Source of the DNA: Lachnospiraceae bacterium
Lineage (GTDB): Bacteria; Bacillota; Clostridia; Lachnospirales; Lachnospiraceae
Direction: 5' to 3'
Assembly: GCA_024681775.1 (NCBI GenBank)
Contig: JAILAF010000139.1
Coordinates: 1 to 46,903 of the forward strand
DNA length: 46,903 nt
Part shown: one piece after another, positions 5,669 to 22,458 of the stretch
Layout: each line of letters begins with the position of its first letter
How positions within the stretch are numbered: the first letter of the stretch is position 1
The notes under the pieces: model-generated
Told to the model about the DNA's origin: nothing
The model's database searches: none
Seen by the model: the letters and a program-made list of their open reading frames with translations, nothing else
Program-made: the position numbers and the translations under genes

Positions 5669-6448
5669 ATGGCATACGACTACGAGTATTTCAAAAAAGA
5701 AATCCTTACCATGACCGGTATTGACCTGAACGCCTATAAAGAGAAGCAGATGAAGCGCAGGATCGACACACTGATCGGGCGCAGAGGAATTCAGGGATAT
5801 GACCTCTATGTCAAAGCGCTGAAGACCGACCACGAGATCTTTGATGAGTTCATCAATTACATCACCATCAATGTGTCGGAGTTCTATCGGAATCCTGACC
5901 AGTGGGAATACCTGGACAAGACCATCATTCCCGACCTGCTGAGCCGCTTCGGACAGAATCTGAAGATCTGGAGCGCAGCCTGCTCCACCGGTGATGAGCC
6001 CTATTCCCTGGTCATGGCATTCTCGAGACATATTCCTCTGAATAAGATCAAGATCTATGCCACCGACCTGGACAAGACCGTCATCGCGAAAGCAAAGGTG
6101 GGCCTGTATGATGCGAAGAGCATTTCCGGTGTCCCCGATGATTTCAAGAAAAAGTATTTTACACAGGTGGGACCTTCCTACAAGATCTCCGAGGAGATCA
6201 AGTCCCGTGTGGAGTTCCATGAGCATAATCTGCTGAAGGACCCCTACAAGAAGGATTATCACCTGATCGTCTGTCGAAATGTGCTGATCTATTTCACGGA
6301 TGAAGCAAAGGACGAAGTGTTCCGGAAGTATTGCGACTCCCTGGTGAAGGGCGGATATCTCTTCATCGGCAGCACGGAGCAGATCGTCAATTACAAAGAA
6401 GTGGGATTTGTTCGGAAGAACTCTTTCTACTACGAAAAACCGATGTAA
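5669..6448 (+). CDS. cheR: CheR-type protein-glutamate methyltransferase
   Basis: A 259-residue SAM-dependent methyltransferase of the CheR family, which methylates glutamates of chemoreceptors. A helical N-terminal CheR_N domain (about residues 1-65, with IDLNAYKEKQMKRRIDTLI) precedes the catalytic domain. FRNPDQW-type FYRNPDQWEYL, the SAM-site segment KIWSAACSTGDEPYSLVM, IYATDLDK and the LIVCRNVLIYF motif are all present. The gene lies 28 nt after the S1 gene and is not next to other chemotaxis genes. The ribosome site before the ATG at 5669 is weak, so translation may be coupled or poor. Confidence 0.93.
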   Translation: MAYDYEYFKKEILTMTGIDLNAYKEKQMKRRIDTLIGRRGIQGYDLYVKALKTDHEIFDEFINYITINVSEFYRNPDQWEYLDKTIIPDLLSRFGQNLKIWSAACSTGDEPYSLVMAFSRHIPLNKIKIYATDLDKTVIAKAKVGLYDAKSISGVPDDFKKKYFTQVGPSYKISEEIKSRVEFHEHNLLKDPYKKDYHLIVCRNVLIYFTDEAKDEVFRKYCDSLVKGGYLFIGSTEQIVNYKEVGFVRKNSFYYEKPM

Positions 6449-6455
6449 GTACAAC

Positions 6456-6582
6456 GAAAATGCAGGTCTAACGACCTGCATTTTCTTATGTACGACAACA
6501 AAAATGCAGGCGAAACGCCTACATTTTCTTATGTAAGTACAAACTAAAACGCAGGTCTTCGGACCTGCGTTTTAGTTTGTAC
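6456..6582. terminator. Three related hairpins ending the cheR transcript
   Basis: Three hairpins in a row. Arms 6456-6468/6473-6485 are 13 bp, perfect, loop TAAC. Arms 6501-6511/6517-6527 are 11 bp with one mismatch, loop GAAAC. Arms 6537-6557/6562-6582 are 21 bp, perfect, with a TTCG tetraloop. All share an AAAA(T/C)GCAGG left arm and a CCTGC(A/G)TTTT or similar right arm ending in T-runs. They lie between convergent cheR and the yprB-type gene, so they should stop transcription from both sides. Confidence 0.75.
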
Positions 6583-10176: not shown

Positions 10177-10805
10177 ATGAAATGTCGGCAGGCAAAGACA
10201 TCCGGATCATGTTGAAGGAAGCCTTTACCCTCTTTGCGATCACCCTCATCGCAGGACTTCTTTTGGGTTTTATCTATCAGCTGACCAAAGACCCAATAGC
10301 CGAGCAGGAGGCTCTGGCGGTGCAGAATGCCTGCAGAAGCGTTTTTTCAACGGCAGACTCCTTCAAACTGACGGATCTGTCACCTTCCGCTGCGCAGGCA
10401 GAAGAGTACAAAAAGCTGGGCGTTACCATCGGTGAGGTCTATGAGGCACTGGATGCATCCGGGAACTTCCTGGGCTATGTGCTCCGCTCTGCCTCCAATC
10501 AAGGCTACGGCGGCGATATCGTGCTGTATCTGGGCGTGGCTTCTGACGGTACGCTCCGGGACGTTTCAATCCTGGAGATCTCCGAGACGGCTGGCCTGGG
10601 CATGAATGCGGAATCCGTGCTGGTGCCCCAGTTCCATGAAAAATCCGTCCCGCAGTTTTCTTACACCAAGACAGGTGCTGCCGCGGAAGATGAGATCGAT
10701 GCCATCAGCGGTGCCACCATTACCACCAGGGCTTTCGTGAATGCCGTGAACTGCGGTCTTTCCTATGCCATCGATGAGATGAAGGGAGGTGCCGGCAATG
10801 AATAA
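10173..10805 (+). CDS. rnfG: Rnf complex subunit G (covalent FMN subunit)
   Basis: A 210-residue protein with one N-terminal membrane helix (about residues 15-37) and an extracytoplasmic FMN-binding domain. DAISGATITTRAFVNAV near residue 175 is the SGATxTT signature; the second Thr is flavinylated by ApbE. No apbE gene is in the window. NQGYGGDIVLYLGV is the other family landmark. It overlaps rnfD by 4 nt and rnfE by 8 nt. Confidence 0.95.
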   Translation: MNEMSAGKDIRIMLKEAFTLFAITLIAGLLLGFIYQLTKDPIAEQEALAVQNACRSVFSTADSFKLTDLSPSAAQAEEYKKLGVTIGEVYEALDASGNFLGYVLRSASNQGYGGDIVLYLGVASDGTLRDVSILEISETAGLGMNAESVLVPQFHEKSVPQFSYTKTGAAAEDEIDAISGATITTRAFVNAVNCGLSYAIDEMKGGAGNE

Positions 10806-11634
10806 AGTCAGCGAACGCCTGGTCAACGGCATAGTCAAGGAAAATCCCACCTTTGTTCTGGCACTGGGCATGTGTCCCACCCTTGCTGTGACCACCTCCG
10901 CCATCAACGGTCTGGGCATGGGTCTGACCACCACCGTGGTCCTCACCTTAAGTAACCTGATCATCTCCCTGCTGCGGAAGGTGATCCCCAACCGGGTGCG
11001 TATCCCTGCATTTATCGTCATCGTGGCTTCTTTTGTGACCATGGTGCAGCTCCTTTTGCAGGCATACCTGCCCTCTCTAAACAGCGCTCTGGGCGTCTAT
11101 ATCCCCCTGATCGTTGTCAACTGCATCATCCTGGGTCGTGCGGAGAGCTACGCGTACCACAATCCCCCCATCCCGTCCTTCTTTGACGGTGTGGGCATGG
11201 GACTGGGCTTTTCCATCGCCCTGACCCTCATCGGTATGCTCCGCGAGCTGCTGGGAGCGGGAGAGCTCTTCGGCGCGCGCGTGATGCCCGCTTCCTTCGT
11301 TCCCATCAATATCTTCATCATGGCCCCCGGCGCCTTTTTCGTGGTGGCAGCCCTGACGGCGGTGATGAATGTGGTCAAGGAAAAAATGGCAGCCAAGGGC
11401 AAGGACGTGTCCAAGTTTGGAAACGGCTGCGGCAGCGAGTGCGCATCCTGCGAGTTGGCCTGCGGCTCCCGCAAAGCGGAGTTCGCGGCTGCGGAGAAAG
11501 CTCCCGAAAAGTCCGTTGACCGTGCAGATGCCAAAGCGCCTGTGACGGAAACACCGAAGGAAGAAACACAAACTTTGGAAGCACAGGAAAAGAAACCGGA
11601 AACGGATAACAAAGAGAAAGGAGAGGAAAAATGA
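10798..11634 (+). CDS. rnfE: Rnf complex subunit E with Cys-rich C-terminal extension
   Basis: A 278-residue polytopic membrane protein homologous to NqrD. The core (about residues 1-205) carries the transmembrane helices, with NPTFVLALGMCPTLAVTTSAINGLGMG and the VNCIILGRAE motif holding the membrane cysteines that bind the Rnf [2Fe-2S] centre with RnfA. Beyond the core there is an extra tail of about 70 residues. It begins with a C-x3-C-x2-C-x3-C cluster (Cys211, 215, 218, 222) and ends in a Lys/Glu-rich low-complexity stretch. The E. coli homologue RsxE is about 231 residues. I chose the ATG at 10798, which has AGGGAGG 8 nt upstream. Confidence 0.94.
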   Translation: MNKVSERLVNGIVKENPTFVLALGMCPTLAVTTSAINGLGMGLTTTVVLTLSNLIISLLRKVIPNRVRIPAFIVIVASFVTMVQLLLQAYLPSLNSALGVYIPLIVVNCIILGRAESYAYHNPPIPSFFDGVGMGLGFSIALTLIGMLRELLGAGELFGARVMPASFVPINIFIMAPGAFFVVAALTAVMNVVKEKMAAKGKDVSKFGNGCGSECASCELACGSRKAEFAAAEKAPEKSVDRADAKAPVTETPKEETQTLEAQEKKPETDNKEKGEEK

Positions 11635-12209
11635 TCAAAGAATTATTGATGCTCCTGATAGGCTCCTCTCTGGTCTCCAACGTGGTCCTGAGCCAGTTCC
11701 TGGGCCTGTGTCCCTTCCTGGGCGTATCCAAGAAGATCAAGACCGCATCCGGCATGGGGGCGGCGGTGATTTTTGTCATCACTCTGGCCAGCGCCGTCGC
11801 CGGCGTGGTCTACAAATTCATCCTGACGCCCCTGCATCTGGAGTATCTCCAGACCATCGTCTTTATTCTGGTGATCGCTGCGCTGGTGCAGTTCGTTGAG
11901 ATGTTCCTGCGCAAGGCCATGCCTGCTCTCTATCAGGCTCTGGGCGTGTATCTGCCCCTCATCACCACCAACTGTGCGGTGCTGGGCGTCGCCCTCACCA
12001 ACGTGCAGAAGGAGTACGGTATCGGCACCGGGATCGTCAACGGCTTCGGTACTGCAGTGGGCTTTACCATCGCCATCGTCATCCTTGCGGGACTCCGGGA
12101 GCGGATGGAATACAACGACTTCCCGGGCCCCATCAAGGGTCAGCCTGCGGTGCTCCTGACCGCCGGACTCATGGCCATCGCCTTCTGCGGCTTTTCCGGC
12201 CTGCTTTGA
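11631..12209 (+). CDS. rnfA: Rnf complex subunit A
   Basis: A 192-residue membrane protein with about six helices, homologous to NqrE. NVVLSQFLGLCPFLGVSKK and LITTNCAVLGVAL carry the two conserved membrane cysteines that bind the shared [2Fe-2S] cluster with RnfE. The length is normal. The ATG at 11631 overlaps the rnfE stop by 4 nt and has GGAGAGG just upstream. Confidence 0.96.
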   Translation: MIKELLMLLIGSSLVSNVVLSQFLGLCPFLGVSKKIKTASGMGAAVIFVITLASAVAGVVYKFILTPLHLEYLQTIVFILVIAALVQFVEMFLRKAMPALYQALGVYLPLITTNCAVLGVALTNVQKEYGIGTGIVNGFGTAVGFTIAIVILAGLRERMEYNDFPGPIKGQPAVLLTAGLMAIAFCGFSGLL

Positions 12210-12236
12210 ATTTGATCATCGATAGGAGAACTGATT

Positions 12237-13028
12237 ATGAGCGTAACAGGAATCCTGGTCGCTGCGGGGATCGTAGCGGCGGTTGGTATCTTTGTCGGAC
12301 TGTTTCTGGGCATCGCGGGAATCCGCTTTAAGGTGGAGGTCGATCCCAGAGAAGAAGAAGTTTTGGCGGCTCTCCCCGGAAACAACTGCGGCGGTTGCGG
12401 CTATCCCGGTTGCTCGGGTCTTGCGACGGCCATCGTTAAGGGAGAGGCTCCGGTAAACGGCTGCCCCGTGGGCGGGGAGCCCGTGGGAAAGAAGATCGGG
12501 GAGATCATGGGCGTGGACGCGGAAGAGAGCACCCGTATGGTGGCTTTCGTGGCCTGCGCCGGAGATTGTGACAAGGCTGTCAGGAATTACGAATACACCG
12601 GTGTGGAGGATTGCTCCGTCATGGCTTTCGTTCCCGGCGGCGGACCCAAGGGCTGCAGGAGCGGCTGCTGCGGCTTTGGAAGCTGCGTCAAGGCCTGCCC
12701 CTTCGATGCCATCCATGTGGTAAACGGAATCGCCGTGGTGGACAAGGAGGCCTGCAAAGCTTGCGGAAAATGTGTGGCTGCCTGTCCCAAGCACCTCATC
12801 AGCCTGATCCCTTATGATGCAAAGCATATGGTGGCCTGCAGCTCTACAGACAAGGGCCCCGACACCATGAAAGCCTGCTCTGTGGGCTGTATCGGCTGCG
12901 GCATTTGTGTGAAGAACTGTGAGTTCGGTGCTATTACTGTGGAGAATTTTCATGCCACCATCGATCAGGAAAAATGCACCGGCTGCGGTGCCTGCGTCGC
13001 AAAATGCCCGAAGAAGGCCATCCTGTAA
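12237..13028 (+). CDS. rnfB: Rnf complex subunit B (polyferredoxin)
   Basis: A 263-residue RnfB, the ferredoxin-accepting subunit. One N-terminal membrane helix (about 5-27) precedes a Cys cluster NNCGGCGYPGCSGLA that binds one [4Fe-4S]. Further [4Fe-4S] motifs follow: CGFGSCVKACP, CKACGKCVAACP, CIGCGICVKNC and CTGCGACVAKCP. This multi-ferredoxin form is the clostridial type and is longer than E. coli RsxB. It is the last gene of the operon. The Rnf complex couples electron flow from reduced ferredoxin to NAD+ with Na+ or H+ export; which ion is used here cannot be told from the sequence. Confidence 0.96.
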   Translation: MSVTGILVAAGIVAAVGIFVGLFLGIAGIRFKVEVDPREEEVLAALPGNNCGGCGYPGCSGLATAIVKGEAPVNGCPVGGEPVGKKIGEIMGVDAEESTRMVAFVACAGDCDKAVRNYEYTGVEDCSVMAFVPGGGPKGCRSGCCGFGSCVKACPFDAIHVVNGIAVVDKEACKACGKCVAACPKHLISLIPYDAKHMVACSSTDKGPDTMKACSVGCIGCGICVKNCEFGAITVENFHATIDQEKCTGCGACVAKCPKKAIL

Positions 13029-13124
13029 ACGGATCTCATGGATCTGTGCCCCGCAGCAAGAATGCGGAAACGGCACAGAGCGAAAAGAAAACCGGGAGCA
13101 AAGCGCCCGGTTTGGGGTGAACAC

Positions 13125-14204
13125 TTGAAACTACCCGGAATGGAAGACGATAAAGTAAAAATTTCGCCTCATATCCTGACTGCCATCGTGTCTGCTGCCG
13201 TGGTATTTGTCATCATCCTGGCCATCGTGCTGGGGATGAACAAGCGGCCGGAAACGGTAACGGTAGCGCAGCCGGAAAGCACCGATTCTACTGAGGAGGA
13301 GCTGCCGGATGTCACTTATGGCACGGGACATCCCGAGGATCTGGACTTCTGGGATCTCTACCCTTCGGAAAAGACGCCGGATACGGTGCCACTGGAGGAA
13401 GTGAAGGAAGATCCCCTGGGAGGCGAAGCGCCGGATCCTGCCACCGACGGCAAGCACACCCTGGTGGTGCTGCCCGATGGCAGCGAGGAATGGGTGACCA
13501 TCAACCGGTATCTGCCGGAGCACACCTATGATTACACCAATCTGGTGGCCCAGGGAGATATGATGGAGTATTACATCGACGGTCGCAAGGCATCCACCTT
13601 AGGCATCGATGTATCCAAGTATCAGGATTATATCGATTTTCAGGCGGTGAAAAAGGCGGGCATCGACTTTGTCATGATCCGTGCCGGCGTCCGGGGCTAT
13701 ACCACCGGCCAGCTTTCTCTGGACGAGATGTTCCTGGACAATCTGGATCGGGCTTCCAAAGCAGGACTGCAGATCGGTCTTTACTTTACCTCCCAGGCCC
13801 TGACGGCGGAGGAGGCGGAGCAGGAGGCATCCCTGATCCTTTCCAATATCGGCGAAGCTGTCATCACCTATCCCATCGCCATCGATATGGGCTATGTGGA
13901 CAACGACACCGCCCGGATCGAAGGCCTCACCAGAACGGAGAAGACGGAGGTCACCAAGGCCTTCCTGGATACCATCGCCAAGGGCGGCTACACCGCCATG
14001 ATCAAAGGCAACAAGGAGTGGCTCATCAAGGAGATCGACCTCTCCAAGCTGACGGACTATGATATCTGGCTCTGCCAGAACCAGGATCTGCCCGATTATC
14101 CCTACCAGTTCTCCATGTGGCAATACAAGCTCTCCGGCAAGGTGAGCGGCGTTACCGGGTATGTGAGTATGGACATCTGCTTCGTGGATTACACGGCCAA
14201 GTAA
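13125..14204 (+). CDS. Membrane-anchored GH25-type lysozyme-like protein, catalytic Glu missing
   Basis: A 359-residue protein if it starts at the TTG at 13125 (GGGGTGA upstream), or 354 from the ATG at 13140. One membrane helix (about residues 17-38), an acidic linker, then a GH25 domain (about 155-359). GIDVSKYQDYIDF carries the first GH25 Asp (Asp162). The catalytic D-x-E triplet of GH25, expected after the strand YPIAI, reads Asp254-Met-Gly256, so the catalytic Glu is replaced by Gly. GH25 enzymes cleave peptidoglycan between MurNAc and GlcNAc; this one may bind but not cut. It lies 96 nt after rnfB and ends at a strong terminator. Confidence 0.82.
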   Translation: MKLPGMEDDKVKISPHILTAIVSAAVVFVIILAIVLGMNKRPETVTVAQPESTDSTEEELPDVTYGTGHPEDLDFWDLYPSEKTPDTVPLEEVKEDPLGGEAPDPATDGKHTLVVLPDGSEEWVTINRYLPEHTYDYTNLVAQGDMMEYYIDGRKASTLGIDVSKYQDYIDFQAVKKAGIDFVMIRAGVRGYTTGQLSLDEMFLDNLDRASKAGLQIGLYFTSQALTAEEAEQEASLILSNIGEAVITYPIAIDMGYVDNDTARIEGLTRTEKTEVTKAFLDTIAKGGYTAMIKGNKEWLIKEIDLSKLTDYDIWLCQNQDLPDYPYQFSMWQYKLSGKVSGVTGYVSMDICFVDYTAK

Positions 14205-14320
14205 GCGTGTGAAAGAGTTAAAGCGTAAGAAAATATGATGTACAAGCACGAAATAGAATAGAGAGAAAGCGTACTGGATTTGTATGATCTCCTTCATTCG
14301 GTACAGACAGTGTTAATAGA

Positions 14321-14356
14321 TTGCAGGTAACCCGCGAGGTTGCCTGCAGTTTTTTA
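14321..14356 (+). terminator. Rho-independent terminator after GH25 gene
   Basis: TTGCAGGTAACC (14321-14332) pairs with GGTTGCCTGCAG (14338-14349) over 12 bp with two G-T wobbles and a CGCGA loop. A TTTTTT run follows. It ends the rnf/GH25 transcription unit. Confidence 0.85.
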
Positions 14357-14395
14357 TGCCTGCTTTTTTTACCTGCAGATTTTTAAGCCTGCGTT
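14342..14395 (+). repeat. Four degenerate CCTGC-T-run units
   Basis: Starting in the right arm of the terminator, CCTGC is followed by a T-run four times (near 14343, 14359, 14372 and 14388). The copies look like repeated 3' halves of a terminator. Their CCTGC core is the same as in the hairpins after cheR at 6.5 kb. Confidence 0.5.
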
Positions 14396-14456
14396 TTTTA
14401 TATTCAGGCAAAACGTTACTATGGAGATGAGACAGATTTACAGGAGACAATCGTAC

Positions 14457-14485
14457 TTGACTTTTCTTCAAGTGGGGCGTATAGT
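14457..14485 (+). promoter_or_regulatory. Probable sigma-A promoter upstream of the phased array
   Basis: TTGACT (14457-14462) and TATAGT (14480-14485) are separated by exactly 17 nt. Transcription would start near 14492 and run through the array at 14612-14959 and on into the nuclease-like gene. A short inverted repeat, ACTTG...CAAGT, overlaps the -35 region (14455-14473) and could be an operator. Confidence 0.55.
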
Positions 14486-14611
14486 CGTTTTCGGTTTCGA
14501 TGGTTCTTAAGTAACACTCTGATTCTGGCATTTCGCCACGTGATTCCGATCGTTATAGAAGATGATAGGTTGATGGGCGGTGCGTTTTGTACCGGAATTC
14601 AAGCTGGGCTG

Positions 14612-14959
14612 CACGCACGAAGTATGTTATGCCGCCAACGCGTGTAGAGAGGGGTCGAGAGTTGCACGCGGTTTTTCACTTTATAGTTTTTAGCGTGCAG
14701 TGCATTTTTAGGGCTACACGCTGATTGGGAGAATTGTTCTGTAGGCGTGTACGGTTTTGGATTTGACTGCACGCGTGAAGAAGAAAGAATTGCTTCTGCG
14801 TGTTGTAGCCTCGAGCGCAGGCATGCAATAGCACACATTTCTTCACTTCGCGTGTAGTTCGGACATAGGGAGTGCACGCGCCGGAAGAGAAAACAATGAA
14901 ATGCGTGTAGCCAGAATTTATACCTACACGCGAGGGCTGAATTTTGAACTCGGTGCGTG
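14612..14959. repeat. Phased array of 14 alternating CACGC/GCGTG motifs
   Basis: Pentamer cores alternate in orientation without exception. CACGC occurs at 14612, 14665, 14717, 14770, 14822 (as CATGC), 14875 and 14927. GCGTG occurs at 14640, 14693, 14745, 14798, 14850, 14903 and 14955. CACGC to the next GCGTG is always 28 bp (23-nt gap, seven of seven). GCGTG to the next CACGC alternates 25, 24, 25, 24, 25, 24 bp. Many cores extend to CTACACGC, TGCACGCG or GCGTGTAG. The intervening sequences are all different. No protein-coding frame with repeat-like content is seen. The array lies between a probable promoter and the nuclease-like gene. Confidence 0.85.
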
Positions 14960-14980
14960 CATAGAAAACCATTAGCAGAG

Positions 14981-15045
14981 GGTGGACGCTGAGCAGTATG
15001 GGTGGACGCTGAGAAGTATGGGCGGACGTGGAGAAGTATGGGACG
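14981..15045 (+). repeat. 20-bp tandem repeats, three copies plus part
   Basis: Three 20-bp units at 14981-15000, 15001-15020 and 15021-15040, the first being GGTGGACGCTGAGCAGTATG. The second differs from it at one position and the third at a few. A broken fourth copy begins at 15041. The repeats follow the phased array and end about 20 nt before the ribosome binding site of the nuclease-like gene. Confidence 0.85.
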
Positions 15046-15113
15046 GATACGAATAATTTCATGTATAGGAGGACAAAGTAATCGAGAACTATAAGAAGCA
15101 ATTAGAGGAACAG

Positions 15114-15878
15114 GTGCGCAACATTGAAAATATGATGATCAAGGTGGATCGTCGAATGCGACAATCCAAATTTAGTGATAAGCGTAAGGTTCGAGTTTGT
15201 GTAAAGAAAACCGGATATCAGTATTATCTGGAAGGTGATGATAGCCCGCGAACCTATGTCAAGAAAGAGAATCTTGCAACTGTACAGGCGATTGTACAAC
15301 ACGAGTATGACGAACAGGTGATGAAGGAACTTCGAAATACGAAGTATCGTATTGACCGCTTTCTACGCCAATACAACATGGATGCTGTCGAGAACATTTA
15401 CGACAAGTTATGTGATGCAAGAAAAGCTCTTGTCACACCCATCATCGAACCGGATGAAGCGTTCATCCAATCATGGAAACAAAGGCACATCGGTGGGCAG
15501 AATGATTATCCTGCAACCGGTACATATCTTACGGAACAAGGCGAAACTGTCCGTTCCAAATCTGAAAAGATACTGGCAGATCTTTTTCTAAAGTATGGAA
15601 TCCCATACACTTATGAACCCCAATTACGAATAAAAAACGGGACATACTTTTATCCGGACTTCGCATTACTAAACGTGCGAAGGAGGAAGACATTTTACTG
15701 GGAACACTTTGGACTTATCTCGGATGGAAATTATGCATCCAAGGCATTGCAGAAACTCCAAACGTACGAAGCGGATGGCTTGGTTGCAGGTGAGAATCTC
15801 ATTCTTTCCATGGAGTGTGAATCGATGCCGTTGGATGTGGGGTTGGTTGTGGAAAAAGTGGAAAAATACTTGCTGTAG
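15114..15878 (+). CDS. PD-(D/E)XK nuclease-like protein
   Basis: A protein of 254 residues from the GTG at 15114. I do not recognise a named family. The C-terminal third has the arrangement of a PD-(D/E)XK nuclease: an acidic helix residue in RSKSEKILADLF (Glu151), then YFYPDFALL (Asp182), then FYWEHFG (Glu197-x-His199, where Lys is usual). The N terminus is a charged helix, probably coiled coil. The frame continues upstream as IENYKKQLEEQVRNIE to an ATC at 15081 that sits 8 nt after a perfect AGGAGG, so the true start may be a non-standard ATC. The base composition is clearly more AT-rich than its neighbours, which suggests transfer. A terminator follows. Confidence 0.7.
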   Translation: MRNIENMMIKVDRRMRQSKFSDKRKVRVCVKKTGYQYYLEGDDSPRTYVKKENLATVQAIVQHEYDEQVMKELRNTKYRIDRFLRQYNMDAVENIYDKLCDARKALVTPIIEPDEAFIQSWKQRHIGGQNDYPATGTYLTEQGETVRSKSEKILADLFLKYGIPYTYEPQLRIKNGTYFYPDFALLNVRRRKTFYWEHFGLISDGNYASKALQKLQTYEADGLVAGENLILSMECESMPLDVGLVVEKVEKYLL

Positions 15879-15944
15879 TTGAAGCGATACCGGACTGGTC
15901 CGGAATTCCCGACTCCGAGGGAAAGTAGATAAATTAAAGCAAGA

Positions 15945-15975
15945 AAGAGCATCCCGTAACGGGGTGCTCTTTTGG
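15945..15975 (+). terminator. Rho-independent terminator after nuclease-like gene
   Basis: AAGAGCATCCCG (15945-15956) pairs with CGGGGTGCTCTT (15960-15971) over 12 bp with one wobble and a TAA loop, then TTTT. It ends the unit that starts at about 14492. Confidence 0.85.
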
Positions 15976-16003
15976 TTTCACAGGACTGTAAGGATCGGAT
16001 CGA

Positions 16004-16373
16004 ACCTCGCCCACGCATAAGGGGGGCAAAGGCCATCGCACCCCGTCTGCACAAAAGGGGCAAAGGCCATCGCACCTCGCCCGCGCATAAGGGGGCAAAG
16101 GCCATCGCACCCCGCCCGCACAAAAGGGGGCAAAGGCCATCGCGCCCCGCCCGCACAAAAGGGGCAAAGGCCATCGCGCCCCGCCCGGGCAAAAGGGGTA
16201 AAAGGCCATCGCACCCCGCCCGCGCAAAAGGGGCAAAGGCCATCGCACCCCGCCCGCACAAAAGGGGCAAAGGCCATCGCGGCCCGCCCGCACAAAAGGA
16301 CTCAAAGGCCATCGCACTCCGCCCGAGCAAAAGGGGCAAAGGCCATCGCGGCCCGCCCGCGCAAAGGGACTCA
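16004..16373. repeat. 34/35-bp GC-rich minisatellite, ten copies
   Basis: The marker GGCCATCGC occurs at 16031, 16065, 16100, 16135, 16169, 16204, 16238, 16272, 16307 and 16341, so the period is 34 or 35 bp. Each unit reads roughly GGCAAAGGCCATCGC then a C-rich stretch and CACAAAAGG. Units differ by point changes and by one-base length changes in the G-run. There are no unique spacers. The period is not a multiple of three and frames across it are low-complexity, so it is not coding. The last unit includes the stop codon of the minus-strand gene to the right. Confidence 0.9.
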
Positions 16374-17192
16374 AAGAGGCCCGAAGGTCTGCTCGATCCG
16401 CTCCGAAACAGGGAGAGATGCGTAGATGTCCGCATAGACCCTGGGGGAGATGTCGATGAAATTCTGCAGATATTCCTTGTCCACGCCGTTTTTCTGCAGG
16501 ATATCCGCCGCCTTATTGTAGGCGATAGCAGCCTCCAGAACGGAAGGATAGGTCCCGATCTGCAGGTAGCCGTTCACATGGATCCTGGCAAGATACCCCT
16601 TCTCCACCGCACGGACGCCGTGGTATACGTTCAGGATCTCCAGATTTTCTCTGCGGAAGTCCAGCGGATCCCCGTTGACGAAGCGGTAATCCACCCCCTC
16701 CACCGCGTAGGGCTTGATGCCGTGCCTGGTAAAAACGGAGATCTGGGAGCCGTAGTCCGCCACGAAGAGATGCCCGCCACGCCGCATGATGGTATGCTGG
16801 GAATAGTAGAAGAGATCCTCGAAATCAAAGGTCAGCACCTCCGTGGGAGTAAGATGATAGGTGAAGATCCGCTGCCCCAGCACGATGGGGGTCTTAAAGT
16901 ACAGGCCGCTGTCCCGGAAGTTGACCAGGATCACCCATTTGTCGAAGGGAAGCGGGCCCTTCGTCTTTTTCCCCTGGGAGAGATAGTCCTCCGGCCCCAG
17001 GCGGGACTCCAGCAGCGCCTTTCCCTGGAGGTAGGCGTTATGGGCTTCCTTCGCGGTAGCATAGCTTCCCAGGGAGATGTGCTTTCCTTTGTATGTCAGG
17101 GAGGATCTGTAGTATTCCGTCCCGTCTTTTTTTACAGCCCGGTAGACGCCCTCGGGGAGAGGAGCGCCGCCCTTTTCGGAAGAATTTTTCAT
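16371..17192 (-). CDS. AP2/HNH-like DNA-binding protein, nuclease His absent
   Basis: A 273-residue protein. Two AP2-like three-strand modules are visible: residues about 14-60 (GVYRAVKKDGTEYYRSSLTY, then KHISLGSYATAKEAHNAY) and about 193-240 (YHGVRAVEKGYLARIHVNGY, then LQIGTYPSVLEAAIAYNKA). Before the second is DYRFVNGDPLDFRRENLEIL, which matches the HNH core of AP2-linked homing-type endonucleases (usually VDHINGNPLDNRRENL) but has Tyr-Arg where the first catalytic His is expected. So it is probably a DNA-binding relic or domesticated regulator rather than an active nuclease. Its 3' end touches the 34/35-bp repeat array. No ribosome site stands out before the ATG. Confidence 0.65.
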   Translation of the reverse strand: MKNSSEKGGAPLPEGVYRAVKKDGTEYYRSSLTYKGKHISLGSYATAKEAHNAYLQGKALLESRLGPEDYLSQGKKTKGPLPFDKWVILVNFRDSGLYFKTPIVLGQRIFTYHLTPTEVLTFDFEDLFYYSQHTIMRRGGHLFVADYGSQISVFTRHGIKPYAVEGVDYRFVNGDPLDFRRENLEILNVYHGVRAVEKGYLARIHVNGYLQIGTYPSVLEAAIAYNKAADILQKNGVDKEYLQNFIDISPRVYADIYASLPVSERIEQTFGPL

Positions 17193-17294
17193 AAATCCAC
17201 TTTAACATAGTAATGTCGCAAAAAAAATGGCTTTTCTATTTCTAAAATCAGTGTAAAATAGGAGTGATCATTTATTTTCAGAAAGGAAATGCAT

Positions 17295-18782
17295 ATGGAA
17301 GTCAAGTACAGCAGCACCAGAGGCGCCGGCGCATTTGTAACCGCATCTCAGGCGATTTTACGAGGCCTTGCGGAGGACGGCGGACTCTATGTTCCCGATC
17401 ATATCCCTTCCCTGGATATCCCTCTTTCCGAGCTGGCAAAGATGAGCTATCAGGAGGTGGCTCTGGAAGTGATGCAGCGCTTCCTCACGGACTTCACCAA
17501 AGAGGAATTGCAAAACTGCATTAATAAGGCGTATGATTCCAAATTCGATACCGAGGAGATCGCTCCCCTGGTTTCCGCAGAGGGCGCTTACTATCTGGAG
17601 CTTTTCCACGGCGCCACCATTGCATTTAAGGATATGGCCCTGTCCATCCTGCCCCACCTCATGACTACCGCAGCGCGGAAGAATCATGAGGACAAGGAGA
17701 TCGTCATCCTCACCGCCACCAGCGGCGATACCGGAAAAGCGGCTCTGGCAGGCTTTGCGGACGTTGAAGGTACCCGCATCGTGGTCTTTTACCCCAAGAA
17801 CGGTGTCAGCCCCATCCAGGAGCGCCAGATGGTGACCCAGAAGGGCGCCAATACCTTTGTGGTAGGGATCCACGGCAACTTCGACGACGCGCAGACCGGC
17901 GTAAAGCAGCTCTTTTCCGATAAGGAGCTGGCTGATGAGATGGCGGAGAAAGGCTTCTGCTTCTCCTCCGCAAACTCCATCAACATCGGCCGTCTGGTGC
18001 CCCAGATCGTGTACTATGTCTATGCTTTCTGCAAGCTGCTGAAGGAAGAGAAGATCAAGGAAGGCGAAGCCATCAACGTGGTGGTGCCCACCGGCAACTT
18101 TGGCAATATCCTGGCTGCCTTCTATGCGAAGACCATGGGCCTGCCCATCGAGAAGCTGGTCTGCGCCTCCAACTCCAACAAGGTGCTCTACGACTTCCTG
18201 GGCAGCGGCGTTTATGACCGCAACAGAGAGTTTATCCTGACCTCCAGCCCTTCCATGGACATCCTGATCTCCAGCAACCTGGAGCGCCTGATCTACCGCA
18301 TCACCGGCAACGATGCAGCCCGCACTGCGGATCTGATGAAGGCACTGTCCGGTCAGGGAAAGTACGAGATCTCCCATGACGAGAAGCTTCTCCTTTCCGA
18401 TTTTTATGGGAACTACGCGGATGAACAGGAGACCGCTGACGAGATCCGCCGGATCTATGAGGCCTGCGGCTATGTCATCGATACCCATACCGCCGTGGCA
18501 TCCGCTGTCTACGCAAAATACTTCCGTGCTACCGGTGACAGGAGACCAACCGTCATCGCTTCCACGGCCAGCCCCTTCAAGTTCGCCCGCAGCGTCATGA
18601 AGGCCATCGATGCAAAATACGATGCCATGGATGATTTCGATCTCATTGACGAGCTCTCCCGCATCGCAAATGTGAAGGTGCCGAAGGCCATCGAAGAGAT
18701 CCGTACCGCGCCCGTACTCCACGACCACGTATGCGAGAAAGAGGAGATGAAGGCGGTAGTGAAAGGATTCCTGGGAATCTGA
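17295..18782 (+). CDS. thrC: Threonine synthase
   Basis: A 495-residue PLP enzyme converting O-phosphohomoserine to threonine. The N-terminal YSSTRG and GLAEDGGLYVPDHIP motifs are typical of the longer threonine synthase class. ELFHGATIAFKDMALSIL carries the PLP Lys (FKD). TATSGDTGKAALAGF and VVPTGNFGNILAAFYAK are the phosphate-binding and glycine loops. I chose the ATG at 17295 rather than 17289 because GAAAGGA is then 7 nt away. The M24 peptidase gene follows 18 nt later and is probably co-transcribed. Confidence 0.95.
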   Translation: MEVKYSSTRGAGAFVTASQAILRGLAEDGGLYVPDHIPSLDIPLSELAKMSYQEVALEVMQRFLTDFTKEELQNCINKAYDSKFDTEEIAPLVSAEGAYYLELFHGATIAFKDMALSILPHLMTTAARKNHEDKEIVILTATSGDTGKAALAGFADVEGTRIVVFYPKNGVSPIQERQMVTQKGANTFVVGIHGNFDDAQTGVKQLFSDKELADEMAEKGFCFSSANSINIGRLVPQIVYYVYAFCKLLKEEKIKEGEAINVVVPTGNFGNILAAFYAKTMGLPIEKLVCASNSNKVLYDFLGSGVYDRNREFILTSSPSMDILISSNLERLIYRITGNDAARTADLMKALSGQGKYEISHDEKLLLSDFYGNYADEQETADEIRRIYEACGYVIDTHTAVASAVYAKYFRATGDRRPTVIASTASPFKFARSVMKAIDAKYDAMDDFDLIDELSRIANVKVPKAIEEIRTAPVLHDHVCEKEEMKAVVKGFLGI

Positions 18783-18800
18783 CCGGACAGGTAAGGCAAT

Positions 18801-20618
18801 ATGGGAAAAGAAAACATCGCGCTGCGGATCGCGCAGCTGAGAAAACGGATGGAAGCGGAGGAAATAGATGCCTACTTTGTGGTGACCGACGATTACCACG
18901 CTTCCGAATATGTTGGAGATTATTTCAAAGAGCGGGAGTTTTTGTCCGGCTTTGACGGCTCTGCGGGAGAACTGGTGGTCACTGCCAGGGAAGCCCTCCT
19001 CTGGACGGACGGAAGGTATTTCCTTCAGGCGGAGGATCAGCTCTCCGGCACCGGCATCCGTCTCATGAAGATGCGGGAGCCCGGCGTTCCGACGGTCCCC
19101 GAGTATCTGGCACAGGTCCTTCCTCCGGAAGGGGTCCTGGGATATGACGGACGCACTGTCAGCAATGCCACTGCGGAGGCCATTGAGAAGGCCTGCAAGG
19201 GGCTTCATGTGCGCTATGTGACGAATAGGGATCTGCCCGGGGAGATTTGGACGGACAGACCTGCCATGAGCGCAGAGCCCGTCTGGGAGCTTTCCGCGGA
19301 AGTCACGGGAGAGAGCAGGAGAGAAAAGCTGGAGCGCGTTCGGAAGCAGATGCAGGAGAAGGGCTGTAATGCCCATCTTACCGCCTCTCTGGATGACATC
19401 GCCTGGGTGCTGCAGCTTCGGGGCGGAGATGTGGATTACAATCCCGTTTTCCTGAGCTATCTGCTGGTGCTCACCGGCAGTGCCATCCTCTATGTGAATC
19501 CCGACATCCTCTCCGGGGAGATCATGGATCATCTCAAGGCGGATGGCGTGGAGGTACACCTCTACGATGATATCTACGAGGAGCTCTCCGGACTCCTGTC
19601 CGGCAAGACCGTGCTCCTTTCCAAAGCGAAGGTGAACAAGGCACTCTACATGCGGATCCCCGTGGATGCCAGAGTCGTGGATGACATCAGCCCCGAGACC
19701 CTTTTTAAGGCCTGCAAAACGGAGCGGGAGATCGCCAACGAGCGTCTGGCCCACATCAAGGACGGCGCGGCCCTCACCAAGCTGATCTTTTACCTGAAGA
19801 CGCAGCTTGACGGCTCAGAAGAGCTGAAGGGCGGCAAGGTAACGGAACTCCAGGTGAGTGACCGGCTCTTAAAGCTTCGTGAGGCACAGGAGCATTTCCT
19901 GGGACAGAGCTTTGCCCCCATCATCGCTACCGGTGCTCACGGTGCCATCATTCATTACGAGCCCACGGAAGAGACAGATATCCCCATCGAGGATAATACC
20001 TTCCTCCTGATGGATACCGGCGGACAGTACCTGGAGGGCACCACGGATGTCACCAGAACCGTGCTGCTGGGACAGGGAACGGATCTGATGAAGCAGCTCT
20101 ACACCGCAGTCCTGCGGGGACACATCCGTCTGGCGAGCGCCGTCTTTAAGAAGGGCATCACCGGTGTGAATCTGGATGTGCTGGCCAGAGGCCCCTTATG
20201 GGAGCTGGGCTATGATTACAACCACGGCACCGGACACGGCGTCGGGTACCTGCTGAACGTCCATGAAGGACCGCAGGGCATCCGCCTGCTGGAGGCAGGA
20301 CGGAAGCTGGGAGCCCCCTTGGAGCACGGCATGATCACCTCCAACGAGCCCGGCGTGTACCTGGCAGGGAGGTTTGGCATCCGTCTGGAGAACCTGAACG
20401 TCACTTTAAACGGACCCGAGACGGAGATGGGGAAGTTCCTGAAGTTTGAGACCCTTACCATGGCACCCTTCGATCTGGATGCGGTGCTTCCCGAGATGCT
20501 TACCGCGCCAGAGAAGGAATGGCTGAATGCATATCACAAAACCGTTCGTGAGACCTTGCAGCCGTACCTGACGGCAGAAGAGAACGCATGGCTCGCGGAC
20601 GCGACCAGAGCAATCTGA
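18801..20618 (+). CDS. M24-family Xaa-Pro aminopeptidase
   Basis: A 605-residue metallopeptidase of the aminopeptidase P type. Two creatinase-like N-terminal domains (about 1-300) are followed by the pita-bread catalytic domain. Metal ligands are visible: Asp in LLMDTGGQY, Asp in GTTDVTRT, His in HGTGHGVGY, Glu in TSNEPGVY and Glu in GIRLENL. The C-terminal extension after about residue 540 (EKEWLNAYHKTVRETLQPYL) is the APP_C domain of the long, eukaryote-like form. It should remove an N-terminal residue ahead of proline. The ATG has GGTAAGG upstream. A strong terminator starts 3 nt after the stop. Confidence 0.92.
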   Translation: MGKENIALRIAQLRKRMEAEEIDAYFVVTDDYHASEYVGDYFKEREFLSGFDGSAGELVVTAREALLWTDGRYFLQAEDQLSGTGIRLMKMREPGVPTVPEYLAQVLPPEGVLGYDGRTVSNATAEAIEKACKGLHVRYVTNRDLPGEIWTDRPAMSAEPVWELSAEVTGESRREKLERVRKQMQEKGCNAHLTASLDDIAWVLQLRGGDVDYNPVFLSYLLVLTGSAILYVNPDILSGEIMDHLKADGVEVHLYDDIYEELSGLLSGKTVLLSKAKVNKALYMRIPVDARVVDDISPETLFKACKTEREIANERLAHIKDGAALTKLIFYLKTQLDGSEELKGGKVTELQVSDRLLKLREAQEHFLGQSFAPIIATGAHGAIIHYEPTEETDIPIEDNTFLLMDTGGQYLEGTTDVTRTVLLGQGTDLMKQLYTAVLRGHIRLASAVFKKGITGVNLDVLARGPLWELGYDYNHGTGHGVGYLLNVHEGPQGIRLLEAGRKLGAPLEHGMITSNEPGVYLAGRFGIRLENLNVTLNGPETEMGKFLKFETLTMAPFDLDAVLPEMLTAPEKEWLNAYHKTVRETLQPYLTAEENAWLADATRAI

Positions 20619-20620
20619 GC

Positions 20621-20671
20621 ACAGCAAAAAAATGAACCCTGCAGCAACTGCAAGGTTCTTTTTTTTGCTGT
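20621..20671 (+). terminator. Bidirectional-looking terminator after M24 peptidase
   Basis: GAACC-(C)-TGCA pairs with TGCA-(A)-GGTTC around 20634-20657. It is flanked by ACAGC plus an A-run on the left and a T-run plus GCTGT on the right, so the whole element is nearly symmetric. Confidence 0.85.
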
Positions 20672-20684
20672 ATGGGAGAAGAAC

Positions 20685-20719
20685 CGAAAAAATCCCCGAG
20701 GATTTCTCCCCGGGGATTT
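20685..20719 (-). terminator. Terminator of pckA
   Basis: AAATCCCCG (20690-20698) pairs with CGGGGATTT (20711-20719). On the minus strand the hairpin is followed by a TTTTTT run, as expected for the end of pckA, whose stop is at 20762. Confidence 0.75.
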
Positions 20720-20761
20720 CTTATCTTCAGTGACGTTCCATTTCTTTATGAAATCCGAACA

Positions 20762-22375
20762 TTACAGCTGAGGACCTGCAGCAACCAGAGCCTTGCCTGC
20801 GTCGTTGCCGGTGTACTTCACGAAGTTCTTCTGGAATCTGCCTGCCAGATCTTTCGCCTTCTCCTCCCACTGGGAAGGATCAGCGTAGGTATCTCTGGGA
20901 TCCAGGATGCCGGTGTCAACGCCGGGCAGCTCGGTAGGAACCTCGAAGTTGAAGTAAGGAATGGTCTTGGTAGGAGCGGACTTGATATCGCCGTTCAGGA
21001 TCGCATCGATGATGCCTCTGGTATCCTTGATGGTGATTCTCTTGCCGGTGCCGTTCCATCCGGTGTTCACCAGATAAGCCTTAGCGCCGGACTTCTGCAT
21101 CTTCTTTACCAGCTCCTCTGCATACTTGGTAGGATGCAGCTCCAGGAATGCCTGGCCGAAGCAAGCGGAGAAGGTAGGAGTGGGCTCGGTGATGCCTCTC
21201 TCGGTACCTGCCAGCTTTGCGGTAAATCCGCTCAGGAAATAGTACTGGGTCTGCTCCGGAGTCAGGATGGAGACGGGAGGCAGAACGCCGAATGCATCAG
21301 CGGAAAGGAAGATCACGTTCTCGGCTGCGGGGCCGGAGGAGATCTTGTTCACGTTCTGAGCGATCTTCTCGATGTGCTCGATGGGATAGGAGACACGGGT
21401 GTTCTCGGTAACGGACTTGTCAGCAAAGTCGATCTTGCCTGCAGCGTCTACGGTAACGTTCTCCAGCAGAGCGTTTCTGCGGATCGCATTGTAGATGTCG
21501 GGCTCGGAATCCTTGTCCAGGTTGATGACCTTTGCGTAGCAGCCGCCTTCCAGGTTGAAGACACCGTTGTCATCCCAGCCGTGCTCGTCATCACCGATGA
21601 GCAGTCTCTTGGGATCGGTGGAAAGGGTGGTCTTACCGGTTCCGGACAGACCGAAGAAGATTGCGGTGTTCTTGCCGTCCATATCGGTGTTGGCGGAGCA
21701 GTGCATGGAAGCAATGCCGTTCAGAGGCAGGAAGTAGTTCTGCATGGAGAACATACCTTTCTTCATCTCGCCGCCGTACCAGGTGTTCAGGATGACCTGC
21801 TCACGGGAGGTAACGTTGAAGAGCACTGCGGTCTCGGAATTGAGGCCCAGCTCCTTGTAGTTCTCAACCTTTGCCTTGGAAGCGGTGTAAACGATGAAAT
21901 CAGGCTTGAAGTTTGCCTTCTCCTCCTCGGTGGGACGGATGAACATGTTGGTAACGAAGTGAGCCTGCCAAGCAACCTCCATGATGAAACGGACTGCCAT
22001 GCGGGTGTCCTTGTTGGCGCCGCAGAAGCCGTCTACCACGAAAAGCTTCTTGCCGGAGAGCTGATCCAGAGCCAGCTTCTTGCAGGCATCCCATGCTTCC
22101 TGGGTAGCGCGGTGGTTGTCGTTGGGATACTCCTCGGAAGTCCACCATACGGTGTCATGAGCCTTCGCATCATCGACGATGAACTTGTCTTTGGGAGAAC
22201 GGCCGGTGTAGATACCGGTCATGACATTGACAGCGCCCAGCTCGGTGAGCACGCCCTTGTCATATCCCTCCAGGGAAGGATCCATCTCTGCCTCGAACAG
22301 CTGCTCGTAGGTAGGATTGTAAATGATTTCTTTGACATCGCTGATGCCATACTGGGAAAGATCGATTGTTGCCAT
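20762..22375 (-). CDS. pckA: Phosphoenolpyruvate carboxykinase (ATP)
   Basis: A 537-residue ATP-dependent PEPCK, interconverting oxaloacetate + ATP and PEP + CO2 + ADP. In rumen and gut anaerobes it often fixes CO2 toward succinate. [14 protein letters not shown] is the substrate-binding Arg/Lys segment. The P-loop is [11 protein letters not shown], preceded by a metal-site segment with [39 protein letters not shown] is the kinase-2 region. The length is normal. On the minus strand AGAGAGGA precedes the ATG at 22373-22375. Confidence 0.97.
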
Positions 22376-22458
22376 ACTTAGTCCTCTCTTTTTCTAAAAT
22401 TTTTCGACCAAGATGAGGAAAAATAAAAATTTCCCCCCATATTGAACAATTCTCAATC

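Follow-up and report, generated by a model that had tools for sequence, protein, structure and literature searches.

Half-sites phased by whole helical turns beside a nuclease gene family of Lachnospiraceae

What is the role of a row of short, alternately inverted motifs that precedes a single gene, with exact spacing between the motifs and different sequence in every interval? The locus that raises this question lies in a 46,903-bp stretch of DNA from a Lachnospiraceae bacterium (GenBank assembly GCA_024681775.1, contig JAILAF010000139.1, positions 1 to 46,903 of the forward strand), hereafter the window. The initial annotation, made from the sequence alone, had described fourteen alternating CACGC and GCGTG cores at 14612-14959. 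The array is followed by a gene coding for a PD-(D/E)XK-fold nuclease that has numerous homologs, many of them preceded by arrays of the same geometry. The array is probably a cognate, helix-phased binding platform of paired half-sites that is read by the adjacent nuclease, the latter being the presumed binder.

Re-inspection of 14612-14959 confirmed that the array is real and that its cores, found at the coordinates and spacing first described, are in strict register. The CACGC cores start at 14612, 14665, 14717, 14770, 14822, 14875 and 14927. Thirteen of the fourteen cores are exact and the one at 14822 is degenerate (CATGC). GCGTG follows 28 bp after CACGC in the seven pairs, and the return steps from GCGTG to CACGC are, in order, 25, 24, 25, 24, 25 and 24 bp. 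The first and the last CACGC lie 315 bp apart, which is 30.0 turns of 10.5 bp, in agreement with the mean period of 52.5 bp, or five turns, that had been proposed. An additional GCGTG at 14773 overlaps one of the cores. The longest unbroken run of alternating cores has 8 members in the real sequence versus at most 4 in 200 dinucleotide-preserving shuffles, and the phased score of the array is 13 versus at most 4 across six shuffles. The filler between cores differs throughout, as initially reported: once the cores are masked its identity is 27%, 26% and 24% at lags of 52, 53 and 105 bp, which is the chance level. A decayed 105-bp satellite is ruled out by this lack of alignable filler. The A/T pattern of the filler has mild ripples. 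No other copy of the paired unit, with one mismatch or less, was found in the source genome (2.9 Mb, 92% complete).

The initial annotation had looked to the core pattern as the way to find related arrays. The literal core was found in one of 200 family genomes, the source genome itself, and a search of viral contigs gave no match. The relatives have the same geometry with other cores, which explains why the literal core is nearly confined to the source genome. A first scan of nine related loci of named genomes found upstream arrays in six and none in three, most of the arrays having other cores, such as ACGGG (locus L019), TACTA (L020, from Pseudobutyrivibrio ruminis CF1b), GGAAC (L021) and CTTAA (L022). 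The units of the L019 and L021 arrays are nearly identical to one another. A detector free of assumptions about core and period was then applied, its threshold being a score of at least 6 that is also two above the best of six shuffles. The 118 genes were no random sample, most of them being the best matches that left room on the 5' side; for 80 a stretch of DNA was retrieved, and in 114 the upstream region was long enough for the test. Of these 114 regions 75 passed the threshold, their alternately inverted arrays having a wide variety of cores. A score of 6 or 7 was reached by 12 of 684 shuffles and exceeded by none, and the 3-prime flanks used as control (31 usable of 33) scored 0 to 6. Two of 56 stretches of the window, the 3-prime flank included, scored 9; that flank did so at a period of 34.5 owing to a 34-bp repeat described below. 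A second set of 46 loci provided 40 for use, the other six being repeats of earlier loci or cut by a contig end. Among the 39 that were long enough 21 were above threshold. Other families of the class contributed 18 testable loci, of which 6 are among these 21; several second-set loci from those families match the nuclease domain only.

The periods of these arrays are quantised in whole turns of the double helix. A full period could be measured in 66 arrays; L082, L088 and L090 were dropped from the statistic (measured period below 50 bp, judged to be inner-motif spacing) and the period of L083 was set by hand to 75 bp from its exact spacing, the tree described below still labelling it as five turns. 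The period lies within 1.5 bp of a multiple of 10.5 bp in 60 of the 63 remaining arrays, when 28.6% are expected; the exceptions are 54.1, 71.0 and 71.3 bp. The mean resultant at 10.5 bp is 0.87 and the best period in a scan from 6 to 20 bp is 10.45. The classes of five to nine turns (51-54, 62-64, 71-75, 83-85 and 94 bp) hold 34, 13, 12, 3 and 1 arrays, respectively. The second set, whose clades are partly common with the first, gave 16 of 18 periods near multiples of 10.5 bp (misses at 50.8 and 77.0 bp; L177, at 40 bp, was excluded). On a tree of the 118 proteins the five- and six-turn classes are grouped by clade (none of 500 shuffles was as low), unlike the seven-turn class (126 of 500 as low). 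At least 14 changes of turn class are needed on this tree, therefore the quantisation is not one inherited number. The mean lengths of the amino terminus and linker are similar across turn classes, and protein size does not set the period.

Quantisation is also seen within single arrays, where the width of the pair is constant and the linkers shift by whole turns. One-turn jumps occur in L085 (steps of 30, 54, 30, 53, 30, 43, 30, 53, 30, 43 and 30 bp), L096 (53, 30, 43, 30, 43, 30, 43 and 30 bp), L077 and L045. The second nuclease copy of the source genome, L105 (G000:C81:110867-112946), has its own array with core GATGC. Its pairs are 30 bp apart and its units are separated by 136, 105, 84 and 84 bp, or 13, 10, 8 and 8 turns, the left half of the first unit having just four bases; the relatives in its clade (L093, L141, L178-L180) have a 62-bp period. 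When the irregular steps between constant-width units are pooled over all loci, 20 of 25 deviate by 1.5 bp or less from a multiple of 10.5 bp, some of these steps being ordinary periods because the modal step is ambiguous in five loci (L039, L072, L112, L137 and L180).

The cores have changed less than the filler. The window and its ortholog L017 are identical at 67 of 70 core bases (96%) and at 156 of 242 filler positions (64%; Fisher 2e-8). The three bases flanking the cores, with 26 of 42 identical, are no better conserved than the filler. All 14 locus pairs compared show higher conservation of cores than of filler, one of them by just 2 points, the alignments being weak in several.

The array belongs to a cassette whose extent was deduced from two comparisons. 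The cassette is absent from a genome of the same genus, G206, which has about 140 bp in place of window positions 14204-16377 between flanks that are 85-89% identical, and whose terminator behind a GH25 gene matches the window terminator behind the nuclease gene (15932-15972). The match of L017 to the whole window is confined to 14441-15839, thus its flanks are unrelated to those of the window. Together these limits define a cassette made of a promoter-like site, a leader, the array and one gene:

14204-15931 (ends approximate), + strand: cassette with promoter-like site, leader, array and nuclease gene, from comparison with G206 and L017
14457-14485, + strand: predicted sigma-70-like promoter, TTGACT-17-TATAGT, a consensus match conserved in L017
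14526-14538, + strand: small leader hairpin, TGGC-ATTTC-GCCA, present also in L015 and L017
14609-14962, no strand: array of 14 alternately inverted half-sites in 7 pairs, core CACGC, mean period 52.5 bp
14980-15042, + strand: 20-bp direct repeat in three copies between array and gene, mostly absent from L017
15067-15072, + strand: Shine-Dalgarno sequence AGGAGG, 8 nt ahead of an AUC codon, kept in L017 and L018
15081-15878, + strand: gene of the PD-(D/E)XK-fold nuclease (265 aa) with a probable AUC start, from the Shine-Dalgarno position, homologs and structure matches
15932-15972, + strand: terminator-like hairpin, with a counterpart directly after GH25 in G206

The promoter-like site and the leader with its hairpin are found 5' of the window array and both are conserved in L017. 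A short hairpin of the GTGGC...GCCAC type is present about 40 nt past the promoter-like site in the window (14500-14560), L015, L017, L030 and L033, and is possibly a leader element common to several loci of the nuclease family. The region 15973-16377 is likewise missing from G206 but need not be part of the cassette. It holds, at 15999-16365, ten copies of a G+C-rich 34-bp tandem repeat (GGGGCAAAGGCCATCGCACCCCGCCCGCACAAAA) that adjoins the cassette and is not found at that place in G206. The neighbouring gene on the minus strand (16371-17192) codes for a 273-aa protein with no Pfam match at E 0.01, whose amino terminus looks AP2-like by eye. Elsewhere in the window (6443-6573) a 44-bp unit occurs three times, each with an inverted repeat, GCAGGTC...GACCTGC, and a T-rich stretch behind it, resembling repeated terminators. 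Sequences that look like tRNAs by eye lie 5' of nuclease-family genes at L034, L145, L146 and L098, perhaps a favoured insertion place of these genes.

The nuclease protein, 81% identical in L017, features an amino terminal coiled coil with a beta tip and a carboxyl terminal nuclease fold. The Foldseek and VIA-align matches of the carboxyl terminus include PD-(D/E)XK chains such as Bax1, TnsA and Can2. Both features of the superfamily, the fold and the conserved acidic residues, are found, and the catalytic residues are invariant in 118 of 118 homologs. No Pfam family passed for the nuclease, and the amino terminus searched alone gave just generic coiled-coil matches; a weak PADLOC match of the L015 amino terminus to Cas10 (E 4e-4) was read as coiled-coil similarity and discarded. 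Residues 148-262 are homologous to PDC-S68, a group of candidate defence proteins in PADLOC (E 4e-23). These models have about 1200 residues and are matched at their carboxyl terminal end only, while the window nuclease has 265 residues and a different amino terminus.

The window gene probably starts with an AUC codon at 15081, 8 nt past AGGAGG (15067), and its frame ends at 15878. At the position of this codon L017 has AUC and L018 AUA. Several members of the family have such non-AUG starts (AUC, AUA) 8-9 nt behind a good Shine-Dalgarno sequence, to which the AUU start of infC is a parallel. A simple caller based on the Shine-Dalgarno sequence assigned ATG to 77 of the 118 homologs, ATA to 7, ATC to 7, TTG to 6, ATT to 5, GTG to 1 and none to 15; an individual non-AUG call is open to doubt, but the window, L017, L018, L029, L033 and L125 have calls that look sound.

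The gene family is present at E 1e-20 in 122 of 397 Lachnospiraceae genomes, often in several copies each, and in 15 of 31 genomes of the genus of the window. It was found at E 1e-15 in 23 of 291 genomes drawn from the class. Cassettes with array and nuclease occur in gut and rumen bacteria. Plasmid records match mainly to the nuclease domain, mostly at AAA ATPases (8 records), and the IMG/VR matches cover the nuclease domain only. The one-gene layout, the presence of several copies in a genome and the invariance of the catalytic residues suggest that the cassette is a small defence or selfish module.

How could such a platform work? Paired, inverted half-sites would be set so that successive pairs present one face of the helix. 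The most likely reader is the nuclease of the adjoining downstream gene, acting through its coiled coil and beta tip. Nuclease dimers would probably bridge each half-site pair, and whole-turn linkers would let neighbouring dimers touch along one face. The array-bound nuclease would probably limit its own synthesis, sit in an inactive assembly, or both, while the weak start codon, non-AUG in some members, may keep synthesis low; weak start codons would fit tight control of a dangerous product. Storage, rather than plain autoregulation, is a possible main function that we do not favour. If the protein reads its own array, core similarity is expected to track the amino terminal tip. Across 63 arrays such a correlation with sequence identity is seen for the beta tip (r 0.119, a value reached in 1 of 500 permutations) and for helix 1 (r 0.089, 2 of 500). 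It is weaker for helix 2 (r 0.043, 74 of 500) and the linker (r 0.025, 113 of 500), and is lacking for the nuclease domain (r 0.012, 192 of 500).

Several points weigh against this proposal. The correlation with the tip is small and could be caused by the nearness of the amino terminal codons to the array; its support for binding of the nuclease to the array is indirect. The model of the amino terminus has no convincing match to a DNA-binding domain. An inactive state of the bound nuclease and an action of the array on expression would go beyond what the array, its phasing and its association with the gene reveal. Upstream regions below the detector threshold number 39 of 114, L015, L018 and L040 being below it with arrays that are nevertheless visible by eye. 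A homolog from a phage collection (86% of the query covered) has no upstream array, its score of 4 equalling that of its shuffles. A crude within-array test on raw sites (47 deviations) gave no 10.5-bp signal, probably because chance sites split the intervals.

Other explanations account for less of the evidence. A neutral tandem repeat, regular merely through recent duplication, would fit the near-identical units of L019 and L021, but is contradicted by the unalignable filler of the window, by the excess of core over filler identity in its ortholog and by quantised periods with repeated class changes on the tree; we regard it as extremely improbable. The initial annotation had left two readings side by side, protein-binding palindromes on one DNA face and a transcribed string of hairpins, of which the former is now favoured. 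Action of the array as RNA, for instance as a ToxIN-like RNA antitoxin or a processed leader, would agree with its place 3' of the promoter-like site and 5' of the gene, as seen in the window and in some relatives, with a stable predicted fold (z -6.87) and with a slight excess of G-U type over A-C type differences (163:129 and 158:129). This fold joins largely non-neighbouring arms, and its stability would be expected of any array of inverted repeats. When 68 arrays were classed, 20 had a promoter-like score of at least 12: 10 lie upstream of the predicted promoter, 9 downstream and 1 spans it (the site of L034, among the 9, precedes a tRNA-like sequence; the L015 and L040 arrays were placed by eye). 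Half-sites of one pair are no more alike than expected on re-pairing (2476 versus 2492; 2508 versus 2513), so no RNA stem covariation was detected across half-site pairs. Arrays on either side of promoter-like sites and half-sites without covariation make an RNA role very unlikely; whole-turn spacing has no RNA rationale and an Rfam search gave no match.

If the array acts as DNA, its reader might be a different, host-encoded protein, the adjacent nuclease being merely its target gene. The nuclease has no recognised DNA-binding fold, and two readers would suffice for the source genome, whose two copies differ in core (CACGC and GATGC). Genomes with many copies would, however, need many dedicated readers, the cores track the nuclease's own tip and the cassette has no other gene, which renders this explanation rather unlikely. 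Use of the array in movement of the cassette, by homing or as binding sites for transposition, appears distinctly unlikely: the array lies inside the cassette and at one side only, no transposase or integrase gene is present, and no terminal repeats or target duplication were noticed at the approximately mapped ends. Reading by the nuclease itself could also take a stronger form, which we hold to be doubtful, in which DNA is the antitoxin of a one-gene module: an oligomer of the nuclease would sit along one face of its phased array and be kept inactive there. As the phasing is set by DNA twist, this stored assembly could fall apart and liberate the nuclease. Release would then follow chromosome cutting, degradation or a change of supercoiling, for example during phage infection, and the paralogues, each having a core of its own, would be mutually insulated versions of one device.

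Tandem sites quantised in turns across a gene family, with a core that differs by copy, offer a natural experiment on the geometry of DNA faces and the coevolution of proteins with DNA. Should the nuclease prove to read its own array, the cassette would be a compact self-controlled nuclease system, common among Clostridia of gut and rumen, from which orthogonal DNA-binding modules might be drawn. The combination of array and nuclease suggests a form of nuclease control through DNA that has not been described.

The initial statement that the array matches no known repeat class stands: tested features of CRISPR (clustered regularly interspaced short palindromic repeats), BIME/REP and ToxIN fail. 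No description of such arrays was found in the open PubMed Central literature, judged from listings and the starts of abstracts. That no known class fits is provisional, the claim of novelty covering the open literature and neither subscription papers nor preprints. A CRISPR array is ruled out by the alternating orientation of the cores, by filler that aligns between orthologs and by the nearly identical units of L019 and L021; a Pfam scan of nine neighbouring proteins (10789-22381), the part of the genome searched, found no cas genes. Bacterial interspersed mosaic elements (BIMEs) are built of repetitive extragenic palindromic (REP) elements, short, regularly spaced and alternating in orientation like the sites described here, REPs usually numbering more than 100 copies per genome according to the part of the source consulted (PMC2817692). 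Whole-turn quantisation is not stated in the abstract of that paper. The paired unit of the window is instead restricted to one array of its genome and not dispersed, and its gene codes for a PD-(D/E)XK-fold nuclease and not for the tyrosine transposase (RAYT) that accompanies REPs; no Pfam match to a tyrosine (Y1) transposase was found in the adjacent genes or the nuclease. Type III toxin-antitoxin systems of the ToxIN type also have repeats adjoining a nuclease gene, the toxin being an endoribonuclease and the repeats acting as RNA, as far as the consulted part of the source describes (PMC8860590). They differ from the window family, whose half-sites lack RNA covariation, whose arrays may lie outside the predicted promoter and whose nuclease appears, by its listed Foldseek and VIA-align matches, to have a PD-(D/E)XK fold. 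Among the genes beside the window array none for Rep, Par or a repressor was found. Iterons, centromere-like sites and multi-site operators are repeated sites in helical register beside a gene, often that of the binding protein. The window array differs from them in that its sites form alternating inverted pairs, with linkers that jump by whole turns and cores that vary between the copies of the family.
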